A model generated the notes under the pieces. It ran no database searches and had not been told where the DNA came from. It saw only the letters and a list, made by a program, of their open reading frames with translations. Both the position numbers and the translations under genes were made by a program. A DNA stretch of 64,000 nucleotides from Nostoc sp. HK-01 (GTDB lineage Bacteria > Cyanobacteriota > Cyanobacteriia > Cyanobacteriales > Nostocaceae). Positions 27,406 to 35,998 of this stretch are shown one piece after another; the first letter of the stretch is position 1; each line of letters opens with the position of its first letter. The stretch covers positions 372,001 to 436,000 of the forward strand of contig AP018318.1 in assembly GCA_003990705.1 (NCBI GenBank), given 5' to 3'.

Positions 27406-29484
27406 TCAATTCACAGTGATAACTACACCCAAACTCTCATTCGCTAACCTATCAACAGCACAGACAGCATAAGTTCCAGGTTGAACAGTGGCAAAGGTTG
27501 TCCCAGCCGATAAAATACGCTGAAGTGTCCAACCATCCCCAGCTTGCCGATAAAGTGTCCAAGAACGTACCGGTTGACTATCTCCAGGTTGCCAATTGAG
27601 TTTACCGTCTTTGAATTGCAGGGCTTTGGGTGGTGCGACTGGGGCTGCATTCCGCCAAGACATAGAAGGTACTATTGCAGGTCGAGAATAAAGAGAATTT
27701 TTGAATTGGTCAGCAATACCGCGCCGATTTTGATTAATGGCACTCATACTAAAGAAAATATTCCCTAAAGACAAACTTCCGGCTAAGTTCCGGGAAATTT
27801 TCACTTGTTTATCAATTTCATCGTCTTTCCAAGCTTTACCATCTAGTTGACCAAGATTATTCCCGGTGTAAATGTGTCGCTGCTGAGAATTAATGTCTGT
27901 CCACCACTTCAATAGCGCAGGATAACTTTGTTTGGTTTGGTCAATTCGCCAATAGAGTTGAGGTGCTAAATAATCAATCCAGCCTTGTTCTAACCATTTG
28001 CGTGAATCTGCATACAGCACATTGTAAGCATCTAAACCAGTAATGCCGGCTGGTTGTCCGGGGCGGTAAATCCCAAAAGGACTGATACCAAATTTGACAT
28101 AGGGTTTTGTCGTCTTGATTCCTTCAGAGAGGCGCAACACCATTTGATTCACATTTTCTCGCCGCCAATCATCTAAATTCAACGCACCGCCAGCAGCTTT
28201 GTAAGCGGCGTAGGTTCTGCTATCGGGGAAAGATTGACCTTGAATGGGATAGGGATAGAAATAATCGTCTAAATGAATTCCATCTACGTCATAGCGCCGC
28301 ACAACATCAAGGATGACATTGTAGGCTCTATCTTGAACAATTTTCGAGCCTGGTTCCATCCACAGTTGATTACCCCATTGATAAACTACTTCTGGATGAG
28401 TCACTGCTATATGAGGGCGAACATTAGGAGAACCCTTGATGCTAGTTTTAGCGCGGTAGGGGTTGAACCAAGCATGAACTTCTATATTGCGTTTGTGACA
28501 TTCGGCGATCGCAAACTCTAATGGATCATAAAATGGTTCTGGCGCTCTCCCTTGAGTTCCCGTAATCCAAGCACTCCAAGGTTCTAATTCCGAAGCATAC
28601 AAAGCATCCCCTTCTGGGCGAACCTGCAAAATTAAGGCGTTGAAATTCAGTGCTTGCAACTGGTTGACAATTTCCAAAAATTCTGATTTTTGTTGGGCAG
28701 TTGATAACCCAGCTTTAGAAGGCCAATCAATATTCGACACCGAGGCTACCCAAGCCCCGCGAAACTCTCGTGTATGGCTGAGTTTTAATGTACCGGGTAC
28801 TGGGGGTGTGGGTATGGGTGTTGGAATTGGAGTAGGTGTGGGTGTAGGCGTGGGCGTTGGTGCTGGTGTTGTGTTTGCTGGTACTACAAGGTAAACAGAA
28901 GGAATCTTCGGGGCGCTACCCAAATACACCAAAGCTTGATAAACCATCACCGCGACATCGCCGCGAGTAGCAGCTGTCGCATAGTTAAGTAACTTGATAT
29001 TGGGGAAACTAGCCACAAAGCCGGCACTCGTCGCCAATGCTACTTGATTTCTCGCATAACCAGGAATGTTAACTGCGTCTTGATAAATTTGGGGTAGTTG
29101 GTTGACTAAGTCCGGGTTGATTTTTGCTGCAATGTCCAACCCGTTTACCAGAGAAACTAAAACATCACCCCTAGCAATGCGATTATTCGGACGGAAATAT
29201 TTATCGGGGTAGCCAGCCAAAAATCCGGTTTCGTAAGCTTTTTGAATGGCGCTTGCAGCCCAGTGATTTACCGGAACATCAACAAAAGGACTGTATTGGC
29301 GCTTGACTGGTACAGTAAAAACTGCTGCAACTATCGCCGCAAACTCAGCACGCGTCACTGAGTTATCTGGGCGAAAAGTCCCGTTGGGATAACCATTTAA
29401 AATGCGCCGCCCTGCTAAGGCTTCAATAAACAGACGCGCCCAATGGTTTTGAATATCTGAGAAGCGTGCAGTAGTAGAGACCAT
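27406..29484 (-). CDS. SLH-domain glycoside hydrolase-like 10 (GHL10/DUF187) protein
   Basis: 692 aa. Three S-layer-homology repeats occupy about 5-190, each with an F-D-HWA...GYPDG-FRP pattern. A Thr-Pro repeat linker follows (~203-232), then a GHL10/DUF187 domain (REFRGAWVASVSNIDWPS... to ~540) and a small C-terminal module. GHL10 proteins act on peptidoglycan-like or other glycans. SLH repeats usually bind the cell surface, but no signal peptide precedes them, and an in-frame TAG lies four codons before the ATG. The gene is monocistronic. Confidence 0.92.
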   Translation of the reverse strand: MVSTTARFSDIQNHWARLFIEALAGRRILNGYPNGTFRPDNSVTRAEFAAIVAAVFTVPVKRQYSPFVDVPVNHWAASAIQKAYETGFLAGYPDKYFRPNNRIARGDVLVSLVNGLDIAAKINPDLVNQLPQIYQDAVNIPGYARNQVALATSAGFVASFPNIKLLNYATAATRGDVAVMVYQALVYLGSAPKIPSVYLVVPANTTPAPTPTPTPTPTPIPTPIPTPPVPGTLKLSHTREFRGAWVASVSNIDWPSKAGLSTAQQKSEFLEIVNQLQALNFNALILQVRPEGDALYASELEPWSAWITGTQGRAPEPFYDPLEFAIAECHKRNIEVHAWFNPYRAKTSIKGSPNVRPHIAVTHPEVVYQWGNQLWMEPGSKIVQDRAYNVILDVVRRYDVDGIHLDDYFYPYPIQGQSFPDSRTYAAYKAAGGALNLDDWRRENVNQMVLRLSEGIKTTKPYVKFGISPFGIYRPGQPAGITGLDAYNVLYADSRKWLEQGWIDYLAPQLYWRIDQTKQSYPALLKWWTDINSQQRHIYTGNNLGQLDGKAWKDDEIDKQVKISRNLAGSLSLGNIFFSMSAINQNRRGIADQFKNSLYSRPAIVPSMSWRNAAPVAPPKALQFKDGKLNWQPGDSQPVRSWTLYRQAGDGWTLQRILSAGTTFATVQPGTYAVCAVDRLANESLGVVITVN

Positions 29485-29698
29485 TGTTGATTGTCACTAG
29501 TTTGCTTGGCTGGATTCTAGCAGTGCGATCGCAATTACTACCGGACTTTCCTATAAATTTTCATATTTGGTAATCTTTTCTGGGCTGTGGCAACAGTTTG
29601 CGTTAATTAACTCCATAATCATTCAACTTACAAAAATTTTGCTATGTCTGTCAGGGCATTTCTTTCTCAGAATAATGCTCATAAATGAAGGAACTACT

Positions 29699-29782
29699 GA
29701 AATGAGTAAGCAATATGCTCAATTGCTGAATAAATCTCTCAAAATGAGAAAGTAATCAGGCAAAATGAGTAAGTAAATATGT
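29699..29782. repeat. Four 21-bp degenerate direct repeats (iteron-like)
   Basis: Units begin at 29699, 29720, 29741 and 29762 with a strict 21-bp period (two helical turns). Three share the core ATGAG(T/A)AAG(C/T)AA at 29702, 29744 and 29765; the second unit is strongly diverged. They lie about 95 bp upstream of the ParA-like gene and are candidate centromere or operator sites. Confidence 0.65.
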
Positions 29783-29833
29783 CTTTTACTGCTTAAAATA
29801 AAGTTCATTATCTAATGAATAATTTATTTCAGA

Positions 29834-29870
29834 TGGGAACACTATATTTAGAAATTGCTGGAAGTTCCCA
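29834..29870. promoter_or_regulatory. Inverted repeat just before the ParA-like gene
   Basis: TGGGAAC (29834-29840) and GTTCCCA (29864-29870) are perfect inverted arms 23 bp apart, ending 6 bp before the ATG. This could be an operator for autoregulation or an mRNA hairpin. Confidence 0.4.
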
Positions 29871-29876
29871 CAAATT

Positions 29877-31214
29877 ATGAGTGTAACTACTGATAGTCTT
29901 CGAGAGGCACTGCAAAACCTTCCTGAAAATGCACCAGAAGCTATTGTAAGCGACCTTTTTGCTCCTCACCTGCTAAGGACTTTAGGGTTTCAGCCTGAAG
30001 AAATTTATCCACAATATAATACTGGTGACGGTGATGTTGATAAGGCAGCCAGGAAAACTAATGGGGAGGATGTTTTTCTCAACACCAAGTCTAATCCATA
30101 CCTCCTATTAGAGTTGAAAGGGCGAGATATTAACCTATCTGAAGATGCAGCACAATATCACACAACTGTTAAGCAACTCAAGCGTTATCTACTTGCTCCT
30201 AATTGCCAAACTGTACAATGGGGAATAATTACTAACTCTTCTCATATTCAATTGTTTCGCAAGCACGGAAAAGTAATTTTTCCTGCAACAAAATGTTTGT
30301 CACTAAACGTCTATAACATTGATAAGATAGTTGCGGCAATTCGCCAAAAAATTGAAAATGTTCCAAAAGCCCTAACTGTAGCAGTTTATAACAATAAGGG
30401 TGGAGTTGGAAAAACAACTACTACTGTCAATTTAGCTGCAATCTTAACTTTTTTAGGGAAAAAAGTTTTAGCCATTGATTTTGATCCTAACCAACAAGAT
30501 TTAACAAGTTCTTTAGGTCTTCCTTTAAGTAACGGGAGTGTTTTTGAGGCTCTTAAAGAAAGAAATGTAGAACTTCAGAGTACTCTACATCCTTATAAAT
30601 TTCCTATCAAAAAGCATAAGATAGATCTGAGGTTTGATGTTATTCCTGCTGACCAAAAACTAACAGAAGAATCTGAAAGTGAATTATTTAATTATTTGAC
30701 AATTAACACCCTTTATCGCAAGTTAGAATTTTCAAGACAAGAATATGACTACATTTTGATTGATGCACCACCTAACTGGCGGATATTTAGCCAATTAGCT
30801 GTTTATGCAGCTGATGTTGTCTTTATTCCTACAAAGCATAACAATCTTTTTTCTTTAGAAAATGCAGCAATGGCAATGAAAAAGTTCATTCCTGAAGTCC
30901 AAGCTAAAAAAGCAGATGGTAGCCCTATTCCATTACCAATTTTTTTTAATGGAGAAAAGATTACACCGCCTAAATTAGCAGTTGCTCAACAAGAAATTAA
31001 TAATATTCTTAAAACTGCTAAAAAAGAGGGATTTAATTTACTTCCTTACTTTTATCCCAAGTATACCAATACCAACAAAGACCTTCGTATTCATGAGATT
31101 CCAAGCTACGCTAATATAGCTGATTCAGCTTTTGCTCGTATTCCTGCGGTTTATCGAGATCGATCTGCTCATGAATATTACAAAAATCTAGCAAAGGAGT
31201 ATTTCCTACAATGA
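29877..31214 (+). CDS. PD-(D/E)XK nuclease-like domain fused to a ParA ATPase
   Basis: 445 aa. Residues ~1-150 resemble the HsdR N-terminal restriction-like domain: D51/D53 in TGDGDVDKA, E79-x-K81 in LLLELKGRD and Q99 in KQLKRYLL fit a D-ExK-Q active site. From ~165 on comes a ParA/Soj ATPase with the deviant Walker A KGGVGKT (K174, K179), IDFDPNQQDLTSSLG and a YDYILIDAPPN Walker B region. ParA moves DNA or protein cargo; the nuclease-like head is not part of ordinary ParA. The start ATG lies after a phased repeat array. Its stop overlaps the next start by 4 bp (ATGA), which implies translational coupling. Confidence 0.86.
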   Translation: MSVTTDSLREALQNLPENAPEAIVSDLFAPHLLRTLGFQPEEIYPQYNTGDGDVDKAARKTNGEDVFLNTKSNPYLLLELKGRDINLSEDAAQYHTTVKQLKRYLLAPNCQTVQWGIITNSSHIQLFRKHGKVIFPATKCLSLNVYNIDKIVAAIRQKIENVPKALTVAVYNNKGGVGKTTTTVNLAAILTFLGKKVLAIDFDPNQQDLTSSLGLPLSNGSVFEALKERNVELQSTLHPYKFPIKKHKIDLRFDVIPADQKLTEESESELFNYLTINTLYRKLEFSRQEYDYILIDAPPNWRIFSQLAVYAADVVFIPTKHNNLFSLENAAMAMKKFIPEVQAKKADGSPIPLPIFFNGEKITPPKLAVAQQEINNILKTAKKEGFNLLPYFYPKYTNTNKDLRIHEIPSYANIADSAFARIPAVYRDRSAHEYYKNLAKEYFLQ

Positions 31215-31903
31215 GTAGCCTCAGCAATATTGGAAATTTGATGCACTTATATTTGGATGAAATTGATCCAGGTGCAGGAACCGATGCGCCGGAATTTTTA
31301 ATTAAAGCTTCAGCCCATTTACTTAACCAAAAAGGTGGACGTAATTGGATTCCAGTAATTGTAAAAGAAACTGGTGAAGATAAGTATCAAGTAATTGGCA
31401 ATTCTTTCATTTATGCAGTTGTCGAAGCTGCTGGTTTAGAACGCGTTTGGTGCATTATTACTGATGGTAGTAATGACATTGTCGAAGTAACAAAAATACT
31501 AGCTGGGGAAGAAATACCCAAAATCAATCTCTCTAAGGCATCTAGAGATGAAATTCAATCAGCATTAGAGTATTTAGTCAAGCAACCAGATAGTATTCTT
31601 AAATCTGTCAAACCTGCTATAGCGACAAACCGAATTGATGAAGCCCCTCGTCAATATTGGAAGACATTAGAACCAATCATAAATCTAAAATGTGGCATTA
31701 CCAAAGGTAAAAAACTAGATGCTTTAAAACAAGTTTTTTATCTAACTCCTCAATCAATACCAGAGACAATCACTGATTCTGAGATCATCAAAACAATGTC
31801 AACGGCTGATTTAAAAGCAATGGCAAAGAAACAAGGAATCACTGGCATAAGTAAGATGAAAAAAGATGAGCTTATTAGAGAATTAAGCAAGTTTTCAAAG
31901 TAG
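31211..31903 (+). CDS. ParB/sulfiredoxin-like protein with C-terminal Rho_N/SAP-like motif
   Basis: 230 aa, coupled to the ParA-like gene by a 4-bp overlap. The N-terminal ~100 residues follow the ParB N-domain pattern: GGRNWIPVIVKE..., YQVIGNSFIYAVVEAAGLERVWCIITD. The usual GERR CTP-binding box is replaced by GNSF. The last ~35 residues (LKAMAKKQGITGISKMKKDELIRELSK) match the Rho N-terminal/SAP-like helix-extended-loop-helix often used for nucleic acid binding. It is probably the DNA-binding partner of the upstream ParA fusion. A conventional HTH domain is not visible. Confidence 0.75.
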   Translation: MSSLSNIGNLMHLYLDEIDPGAGTDAPEFLIKASAHLLNQKGGRNWIPVIVKETGEDKYQVIGNSFIYAVVEAAGLERVWCIITDGSNDIVEVTKILAGEEIPKINLSKASRDEIQSALEYLVKQPDSILKSVKPAIATNRIDEAPRQYWKTLEPIINLKCGITKGKKLDALKQVFYLTPQSIPETITDSEIIKTMSTADLKAMAKKQGITGISKMKKDELIRELSKFSK

Positions 31904-34162: not shown

Positions 34163-34429
34163 ATGAATCGAATGTTTCGGCGCTACCACCGTCAGATAGC
34201 TATTATTCTATGTTTGCCCTTATTTTTAACCGTATTAACTGGTATGGGATTTACCATAGCTCATGAATGGTTACACCAAGATGAGTTAGGCGAATTTCTT
34301 TTAGGACTGCATACATTAGAAATCATTCATTTAGAGAAAATTTACCCCATCTTGAACGGGTTAGGCTTACTTGGCTTGTTAATTACTGGTGTAAGTATGA
34401 CAGGTTTATTCCGTCAACGAGCTTCATAA
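34163..34429 (+). CDS. Small PepSY-associated two-helix membrane protein
   Basis: 88 aa from ATG 34163; a GTG five codons earlier (34148) is also possible and no clear ribosome binding site decides. It starts with a basic RRYHRQ and has one helix (about 12-30), a loop with HEWLHQD, and a second helix near the C-terminus (ILNGLGLLGLLITGVSM). The pattern matches the PepSY-associated TM helices of cyanobacteria, here without a PepSY domain. Role unknown. Confidence 0.75.
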   Translation: MNRMFRRYHRQIAIILCLPLFLTVLTGMGFTIAHEWLHQDELGEFLLGLHTLEIIHLEKIYPILNGLGLLGLLITGVSMTGLFRQRAS

Positions 34430-34452
34430 TAATGTTTGTGTCTAGCAAATAT

Positions 34453-34680
34453 CTACCATTCATTGATATCAACCTGTTCACAGTCTTGCTCAATTGCTTC
34501 ACGCATTAACTGGAGATTATCGGGTGGTATCGAGCCTGCAAAACGTAGCAATTTTCTACCTGGAGTGCCGCGAACTTGAGCTTTTGCCAGTATTCGAGCA
34601 AATTCAAGTACCTGCCATTGCAAATCCTGTGGCATCGCTCTTAATTGTTCGATTACTTCATCAATAAAGGATCTATTCAT
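34453..34680 (-). CDS. Orphan antitoxin-like protein (DUF2281 type)
   Basis: 75 aa from ATG 34680 with an excellent AAGGAGG 5 nt before it; an ATG eight codons upstream lacks such a site. The sequence IDEVIEQLRAMPQDLQWQVLEFARIL... is typical of DUF2281/VapB-like antitoxins whose partners are PIN toxins. No toxin gene follows: downstream is a convergent PepSY-type gene. It is either an orphan antitoxin or the remnant of a toxin-antitoxin pair. Confidence 0.75.
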   Translation of the reverse strand: MNRSFIDEVIEQLRAMPQDLQWQVLEFARILAKAQVRGTPGRKLLRFAGSIPPDNLQLMREAIEQDCEQVDINEW

Positions 34681-34864
34681 TTTATCCTCCTTCCTATTCG
34701 TCATCCTACACTGCTTGAAGATGTGCCATACAGATGATTTTGAGAGAGTGCGATCACTTAAATATTCCCTAATATTCCCTTTTCTTAGACATTTAACAGC
34801 ATTATAATGTCTCGCCTCTTGATTCTAATTAGAAATTCTTGTTTAATTAGATGCAAATTACTTG

Positions 34865-35998
34865 TTAATTCCAATCTTTACGTATTCTCCAAAATTTAAA
34901 AAGCTCTTTAACTTTTATCATCTCTACAGGTTTAAAAATAAATTCCTGCCCCGCTCTATCAATTTCATTCTGAATATTTTTTCCGATAATTGAATCATCT
35001 ATTTCATTCAGTCTTTCTAAATTATTTAAGAGATAATTCTCAAATTCCTTGCGTTCCTCATGATTTCTGTATAACAAAAATACAGCCTCTCCAACCAGGC
35101 TTTGAAAATCGAGCTTGCTATCTGTCATAAAATTCAGAAATGCTCCAGTCCTACTTTGAAGCACGTAATACATATACCAAATTTCGCGTCCTGATGCTCT
35201 AACATGACCATTTTTATGTACTGCTAATGCAATCCTCATTTCATCACAGTACATATAAGGCAAAGTAAACAATGTTGTGGATAAGTATTTAAATTTTGCC
35301 TCTCCTATAAATGACATTTCATTTGAATAGAAATAACTGAATACCTCCCTAAACTCTTTAGATTCAGCGAATTCTATTTGATACTCAGGGTTGTATTTGT
35401 GATAGGCACACTCTTGATTTCCAATATCTTTTTCCCATTCTTCAGGCTTCCATAGTAAATCTACCATTTTCTCACTGGGCTGGACATCCAAACCAAAACG
35501 TTCTCGCCACATGAGTTCAATCATCCTGATGTCAGCACTTTTATCTATAGGTGTATTCGTATCAATGTTTCTTGTATAAATGCTATTTGCTCTTATTAAC
35601 TTATCATTATCTCTGTATTCTTCTCTTAAGTAGTAAGGTTTAAATGGTCTATCAAATATTATTAACACATCTATTTCATTGCTTTGTAATTCAATTGTTC
35701 TTAATTCAATTTCTGGTCTTATATCACCAGCAAATGGCTTTGACCGAAGAAAATCTATCAAGTCAGTTTGTGACCTTCTATTGTCTTGAACAACTCCTTT
35801 TATTTCACAGCCAGCTTGAGGATCGCTCACTCCAAAGATTAGGTACTTATTTCCTTTATGCAGCGAATTAGCAAGACAAATAATATCCTGAAGCAATGCA
35901 GCCTTGTTATCATGATGTTTTTCTTTAAAATCCCAATATTGTCCTTCTCTCTTTGTTGCAACTAACTGTTTAATTTCAGCCTGTAGATTTATATCCAT
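34865..35998 (-). CDS. AlbA_2/Schlafen-like putative DNA-binding protein
   Basis: 377 aa. Residues ~8-135 match the AlbA_2 (Schlafen-type, formerly divergent AAA_4) domain: E-x-x-x-W-D-F-K-E at 20-27, LLQDIICLANS with the conserved NS, and KYLIFGVSD. The remaining ~240 residues contain an alpha/beta region with many aromatics and no recognised domain. AlbA_2 proteins occur in phage-defence islands and transcription regulators. It stands alone, next to an orphan antitoxin. AT content and codon use look slightly higher in AT than in the core genes. Confidence 0.82.
   Translation of the reverse strand: MDINLQAEIKQLVATKREGQYWDFKEKHHDNKAALLQDIICLANSLHKGNKYLIFGVSDPQAGCEIKGVVQDNRRSQTDLIDFLRSKPFAGDIRPEIELRTIELQSNEIDVLIIFDRPFKPYYLREEYRDNDKLIRANSIYTRNIDTNTPIDKSADIRMIELMWRERFGLDVQPSEKMVDLLWKPEEWEKDIGNQECAYHKYNPEYQIEFAESKEFREVFSYFYSNEMSFIGEAKFKYLSTTLFTLPYMYCDEMRIALAVHKNGHVRASGREIWYMYYVLQSRTGAFLNFMTDSKLDFQSLVGEAVFLLYRNHEERKEFENYLLNNLERLNEIDDSIIGKNIQNEIDRAGQEFIFKPVEMIKVKELFKFWRIRKDWN

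Follow-up and report, generated by a model that had tools for sequence, protein, structure and literature searches.

An ATPase is joined to or paired with a nuclease in OLD, Gabija, Septu and PARIS, whose ATPases belong to classes other than ParA/MinD; in ParA/MinD proteins, a lysine closes an ATP sandwich dimer. In GmrSD, SspE and Osa, a ParB/sulfiredoxin (Srx)-fold domain acts together with a nuclease activity that is aimed at foreign DNA or competing plasmids, the domain of GmrS and SspE bearing a DGQQR motif (PMC4619093; PMC13251355), and the ParB cases of a polyvalent-protein survey are reported to come without ParA-like partners (PMC5512222). Here we analyse two adjacent genes of the cyanobacterium Nostoc sp. 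HK-01, termed A and B, which lie within a stretch of 64,000 nucleotides (hereafter the window) corresponding to positions 372001-436000 of the 6.49-Mb main contig of this 7.5-Mb genome of eight contigs. Gene A is predicted to encode a restriction-type PD-(D/E)XK nuclease domain fused to a ParA ATPase, and gene B a ParB/Srx-fold protein. On the strength of conserved catalytic and ParA residue sets, the latter including the dimer-closing lysine, an operon-coupled ParB/Srx partner that changes in step with A, and swappable tails on this partner, we consider the chances about even that the two proteins act in genome conflict as a nuclease switched by ATP, and not as a partition system. The pairing of ATPase and nuclease would be akin to that of OLD, Gabija, Septu and PARIS, from which A is set apart by the ParA/MinD class of its ATPase. 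In contrast to the DGQQR-bearing domains of GmrS and SspE, B lacks the arginine of the nucleotide box, and unlike in the surveyed polyvalent ParB cases a ParA is present, which is joined to a putative restriction-type nuclease.

A putative nuclease-ParA fusion and its ParB-fold partner

A preliminary description of this DNA had placed both open reading frames (ORFs), a 4-bp overlap between them (ATGA, 31211-31214) and a KGGVGKT motif, all of which the ORF listing bore out. The coding features are as follows.

29877..31214, + strand: gene A, 445 amino acids (ORF listing, Pfam, conservation across 54 and 101 sequences, AlphaFold2, Foldseek)
Gene A, residues about 8-160: putative PD-(D/E)XK nuclease domain of the HsdR_N kind (E21, D55, E79, K81, Q100, Y104)
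Gene A, residues about 165-445: ParA/Soj-type ATPase (K174, K179, D201, D203, D296)
31211..31903, + strand: gene B, 230 amino acids (ORF listing, Pfam, AlphaFold2, Foldseek)
Gene B: ParB/Srx-fold domain without the nucleotide-box arginine (residues about 1-100), a helical middle and a Rho_N/SAP-like tail (residues 194-225)

The N-terminal head of A looks like an HsdR_N-like PD-(D/E)XK nuclease domain. Residues 24-129 gave a below-cut-off Pfam match to HSDR_N_2 (E 2.4e-4), and at E <= 0.1 HSDR_N_2 (PF13588) matched 20 of 23 heads and HSDR_N (PF04313) 13 of 23. Among 54 aligned relatives, the candidate catalytic residues were conserved almost throughout (E21 in 53, D55 in 53, E79 and K81 in all 54, Q100 in 50 and Y104 in 52), and the same held across the 101 sequences of the near and wider subfamilies, with E21 and E79 in all 101, D55 and K81 in 100 each and Y104 in 92; Q100 was found in 73 of the 101, and arginine or lysine occupied this position in 24. 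The motif type, E79 and K81 thus stand as initially proposed, while D53 and Q99 give way to D55 and Q100. An hhalign comparison with 13 cyanobacterial HsdR heads (probability 60%, E 8.5e-5) covered 36 columns, among them those of the ExK strand.

In the AlphaFold2 model of A, built with 43 relatives as input (predicted local distance difference test, pLDDT, 90.3; predicted template modelling score, pTM, 0.90), the head comprises helices 21-27 and 29-35, strands 43-48, 53-58 and 76-80, helix 92-105 and strand 115-119, which is the element order of the PD-(D/E)XK core. E21 lies in the first helix and D55 in the second strand; the third strand has E79 at its end and K81 just beyond it, and Q100 lies in the helix that follows this strand. 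No solved nuclease appeared among the 50 fold matches listed of the 1204 that Foldseek found for the A model, all 50 being of the ParA/MinD class by their titles, so the assignment of a nuclease fold is based on motif, profiles and predicted element order. The expectation that structure prediction would reveal a PD-(D/E)XK fold therefore holds for the order of the elements and the placement of the residues, but not for a structural match to a solved nuclease. A direct structural match of the head was also discarded after a profile search of solved structures returned four matches, the best of them (E 0.1) to a phage cement protein.

The remainder of A is a complete ParA ATPase. AAA_31 (ParA type) matched residues 167-343 in Pfam (E 1.2e-31), the best fold matches were Soj and ParA (template modelling (TM) scores, normalised by target length, of 0.75-0.81 for the nine top-ranking Foldseek rows), and the NCBIfam families listed for A (25 of 34) were P-loop ATPase families, every one below cut-off. 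A carries the deviant Walker A motif of ParABS ATPases, signature lysine included (K174, K179), and K174, K179, D203 and D296 were each invariant in 101 of 101 sequences. From these invariant residues and the Soj/ParA fold, A is expected to dimerise in an ATP-dependent manner.

In B, Pfam recognised the Rho_N tail (residues 194-225, E 9.8e-9) and, marginally, ParB_N (E 0.034). The AlphaFold2 model of B (pLDDT 90.0, pTM 0.72) matched ParB, Noc, KorB, PadC and sulfiredoxin in Foldseek, and these matches were good over the N-terminal domain only: this domain superposed on sulfiredoxin 6ky4 with a TM score of 0.70 by target at 3.1 A, and the longer matches to ParB, Noc and KorB, on which any counterpart of the centromere-binding central helix-turn-helix of ParB would depend, had root mean square deviations of about 11-19 A. 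The nucleotide box, of the GERR type in ParB, reads GNSFI in the window's B, where the arginine is missing, and at the nucleotide-box columns of 52 partners arginine did not rank with the most frequent residues (up to six). In these 52 partners, Pfam (E <= 0.01) detected ParB_N in 37, Rho_N in 18, SAP in 10, HeH in 6 and HHH_6 in 6. We conclude from these domain assignments that the partner family combines a constant ParB-fold head with exchangeable small tails of predicted nucleic-acid-binding type.

Codon comparisons indicate that the head, the ParA part and B are under purifying selection: in six comparisons between near relatives, the ratio of nonsynonymous to synonymous substitution rates was 0.12-0.17 for the head, 0.12-0.16 for the ParA part and 0.08-0.11 for the first 180 codons of B. 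Distances between A proteins correlated with those between the cognate B proteins (0.89 over 39 loci; 0 of 2000 permutations), and shared ancestry contributes to this correlation.

Proposed mechanism and comparison with known systems

Somewhat more tentatively, with odds that we place a little below even, we propose an undescribed class of prokaryotic conflict system, derived from partition machinery that has become a device for restriction, in which a ParA sandwich dimer as the ATP switch licenses the PD-(D/E)XK nuclease and a ParB/Srx-fold adaptor with exchangeable nucleic-acid-binding tails picks the target; such systems would be common across cyanobacteria in several subfamilies. In the main reading of a conflict nuclease, ATP-bound A would dimerise on DNA and thereby bring two nuclease heads together for cutting. 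Through its ParB-fold head, B would touch the ParA part in the way that ParB touches ParA, and with a tail of the Rho_N/SAP/HeH or helix-hairpin-helix type it would sense a nucleic acid that marks the target; B would in this way set the place and time at which the nuclease is licensed by the ATPase switch. Plasmid or phage DNA that enters the cell, or else a competing element, would most likely be cut or disabled by A and B. Should this prove true, the ParA/MinD class would be added to the ATPases that are known to gate immune nucleases, and the pairing of ParA with ParB, until now associated with the movement of DNA, would serve to destroy it. Cyanobacteria matter for ecology and biotechnology, and the family might add to the poor transformation of some strains.

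With the ParABS systems of the Soj/Spo0J type, the locus shares the ParA fold, the Walker residues and a ParB/Srx-fold gene directly downstream. It departs from them in the putative N-terminal nuclease of A, in the missing nucleotide-box arginine and the other tails of B, and in that no multi-copy centromere site was found near the pair, upstream repeats dissociating from it and a conserved leader box being single-copy (see below). The head of A resembles that of the type I restriction protein HsdR in its D, ExK and Q residues and in its PF13588 and PF04313 profile matches; unlike HsdR, A carries a ParA ATPase in place of the superfamily 2 helicase motor, and neither HsdM nor HsdS was among the neighbours shared by family loci, B being the sole widely shared one. 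In PADLOC, component B of PDC-M28 weakly matched A over the last part of its head and its P-loop (29.6 bits, E 8.7e-8), but only 99 of 438 positions were matched, and no PDC-M28 model was among the 15 models, each with a single member, that the 52 partners matched in PADLOC (best E 3.3e-5). No model that names the fusion was found in Pfam, NCBIfam or PADLOC, and no paper on a nuclease-ParA fusion was found in a literature search that had bioRxiv and most subscription papers outside its reach.

Distribution of the gene pair

A scan of contigs with near-type peptides recovered 49 near loci (45-86% identity), and in 47 of them B follows A; the two remaining loci are cut short by a contig end, at A or within 140 bases of it. 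B was the neighbour common to these 47 loci, the next cluster of neighbours being present in seven loci at varied positions. The early proposal that a nuclease-ParA fusion and a ParB-fold/Rho_N partner make up a self-contained unit is supported for the two genes, which recur together. In the tree, the window's gene A was placed among Nostocaceae.

A wider genome search that covered the cyanobacterial phylum detected the head in 104 of 386 genomes (E <= 1e-6) and 64 of 139 genera, a count that includes non-fusion ORFs of about 350-390 and 1300 residues; among 60 relatives, the distribution was patchy (16 with the head, E <= 0.001). One genome (G094) held five matches to the nuclease-head profile. 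From the 386-genome search, 59 loci were picked and, together with L101 (below), form a wider set of 60, in 52 of which a same-strand ORF lies directly downstream of A (from an 80-base overlap to 60 bases downstream). The eight others comprise five orphan A genes, one A with a degraded-looking B, another that lacks B, and one truncated A. Four of the orphans (L136, L137, L139, L140), from cyanobacterial genomes about 2.5 Mb in size, share a site beside rpsB and tsf (by eye). Taken together, these sequences indicate a diverse family, widespread in cyanobacteria, with several subfamilies.

At least 33 of the 59 fetched wider loci are on contigs of at least 1 Mb, so the pair is not confined to plasmids in the manner of ordinary partition genes. 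Plasmid copies do occur: two plasmids of Nostoc sp. UHCC 0870 carry the pair (52-56% identity) next to a site-specific integrase, and a distant form is present on a third plasmid of this strain and on Leptolyngbya boryana pLBA. The UHCC 0870 carrier plasmids have separate ParA-, ParB- or ParM-type genes. A 58-kb viral contig holds a 54% relative, surrounded by genes that look Rad52-, XRE- and metalloprotease-like by eye.

The window's genome contains a second, distant pair (L101 6352-8525, - strand; G000:C1 about 4943351-4945524), with an A' of 472 and a B' of 251 amino acids, the latter matching ParB_N above cut-off (31.3 bits). None of the 5000 best plasmid records covered 80% of A'. The L101 pair adjoins a Uma2 gene and a plain ParA gene.

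The leader box and the upstream repeats

Two non-coding features lie upstream of gene A in the window.

29701..29773, + strand: short repeats TGAGnAAGnAA, outside the module (sister-genome comparison)
29815..29876, + strand: leader box, TGGGnACACTAnn...TTGCTGGAAGT (alignment of upstream regions)

The leader box could be aligned in 18 of 22 upstream regions, with none clear or a partial one in L019, L021 and L031, and presumably serves as promoter or operator. In this genome it encloses a 7-bp inverted repeat (29834-29840 and 29864-29870). A hairpin formed in the leader by TGGGAAC...GTTCCCA was considered and dropped, the RNA fold not being conserved (three unrelated pairs, -0.59 kcal/mol), and Rfam gave no match for the leader at E 0.1. 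With up to 3 mismatches allowed, the box has a single copy in this genome, which speaks against a dispersed partition site; as it was the sole conserved non-coding element seen, the suggestion that the pair is tied to a partition site found no support.

The repeat core AATGAGNAAG[CT] occurs at 29701, 29743 and 29764, with no further copy in the window. Three copies exceed chance (none of 20000 single-base shuffles of 29501-29900 reached three), the pattern having been picked after it was seen; a longer repeat pattern has three genomic copies, two of them upstream of the pair. In sister genomes, repeat and pair dissociate: the repeat is present without the pair in L086 (2 copies) and L090 (6 copies), and the pair without the repeat in L092. 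The repeat therefore lies outside the module, and we rejected the array as a part of it, leaving two of the three parts that had been proposed for the system. No common array was found within 500 bases upstream of homologues, L019 and L022 carrying unrelated repeats of their own. The intergenic repeat itself (TGAGnAAGnAA... plus TTGCTTGC stretches), seen in L086, L090 and at window positions 29701-29773, comes and goes between sister genomes.

The chromosomal site in related genomes

The gene that flanks the site (27406-29484, an SLH-type glycoside hydrolase by eye) was present in 11 of 11 genomes of the genus, and the near-type pair in two of the 11, the window's own genome included. Among the relatives in which both flanks could be followed, G001 has a PIN gene (PF01850, E 8.9e-7) after a 99-amino-acid ORF without Pfam match, G006 has nothing at the site, and in G007 the repeats and the leader box as far as about 29839 (its left part) are joined to sequence corresponding to window position about 31997. 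We regard this junction as a deletion scar because elsewhere, too, the leader box goes with the module. With one flank available, G003 has the pair and G002 a type II restriction enzyme (3e-29), a methyltransferase (6.9e-106) and a control protein (6.1e-26); in the remaining five genomes the stretch is rearranged or meets a contig end. Since its contents vary among relatives, the locus behaves like a small site at which restriction genes, toxin genes and candidate defence genes are exchanged.

A near full-length match to PDC-S50, a single-gene PADLOC candidate, lies 3 kb downstream of the pair (window 34868-35998, - strand, E 2.6e-107); the corresponding place in the stretches of G001 and G006 has no counterpart of it. 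At window positions 34419-34704 (- strand), an antitoxin-like 83-amino-acid ORF (by eye) is followed by only the first 28 residues of a PIN-like toxin; this remnant is 86% identical to the G001 toxin (L095 3534-3899), and the toxin gene looks cut off in the window's genome.

Weighing the alternative explanations

Several observations weigh against a role in genome conflict. The tree partly clusters by host family (17 changes, compared with a shuffled mean of 23.2), which indicates inheritance alongside patchiness. A is interrupted in at least 3 of the 49 near loci (L035, L055, L056), and of the five orphan A genes in the wider set four share one site (rpsB and tsf by eye), which gives A there the look of a settled and possibly vertically kept gene. 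Near-whole-protein coverage was found in one of eight viral-contig relatives, and the nine matching phage records all start at residue 137 or later. In PADLOC, 145 ORFs around 20 family loci matched 16 models, compared with 119 for 144 control ORFs (from 17 of 20 regions in the same genomes, 144 of 170 ORFs), and these model counts differ from ORF counts because several models match one ORF. The proposal in the preliminary description that the system acts against invading DNA agrees with the occurrence of the pair at the window's site, which fits DNA conflict, but this comparison did not show an enrichment of defence genes around the family.

Three other explanations have to be set against the conflict nuclease. 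The pair could be a selfish maintenance or competition module that stabilises its carrier locus or plasmid in an addiction- or exclusion-like manner, either because cells that have lost it are killed or because related elements without the partner are cut. Its presence beside an integrase on two related Nostoc plasmids, the distant form on a third plasmid and on pLBA, the copy on the 58-kb viral contig, and a tight operon like that of toxin-antitoxin pairs all speak for such a module; we nevertheless judge it unlikely, as a segregation benefit is less obvious for the many loci on contigs of at least 1 Mb, and as the loss scar in G007 and L145, where A is kept with a degraded-looking B (by eye), imply that loss is survivable on an evolutionary scale. 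An accessory, ParABS-like partition system, in which the head would be a DNA-binding relic of a nuclease, would account for the complete ParA, the ParB-fold partner in the operon and a leader box that could bind B. It leaves the near invariance of the nuclease residues across diverged subfamilies unaccounted for, and B has no nucleotide-box arginine and matches ParB well in its first domain only, the leader box is single-copy, the repeats are not tied to the pair and the carrier plasmids own other partition-type genes, so we give this explanation little credence.

Similarly small credence goes to a housekeeping factor of DNA processing or repair in cyanobacteria. Strong purifying selection and the orphan A genes that four genomes have at a common chromosomal site are what such a factor would lead one to expect, but the near type is patchy within the genus (two of 11 genomes), is swapped with restriction and toxin genes at one site, and belongs to a family with several divergent head matches in one genome and with interrupted copies of A.

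Records with non-cyanobacterial titles

Locus L028 is a contig of 3.7 kb under the title Tatlockia; it groups with a cyanobacterial sequence and may be mis-binned. On the Thermus thermophilus plasmid pTthSNM3-3c (L239 2851-8123), genes for a ParA, a ParB and an N-6 DNA methylase are spaced by 3-5 bases, and a joined match to A' runs from the ParA to the start of the methylase, which places partition genes beside a restriction-type enzyme outside cyanobacteria.

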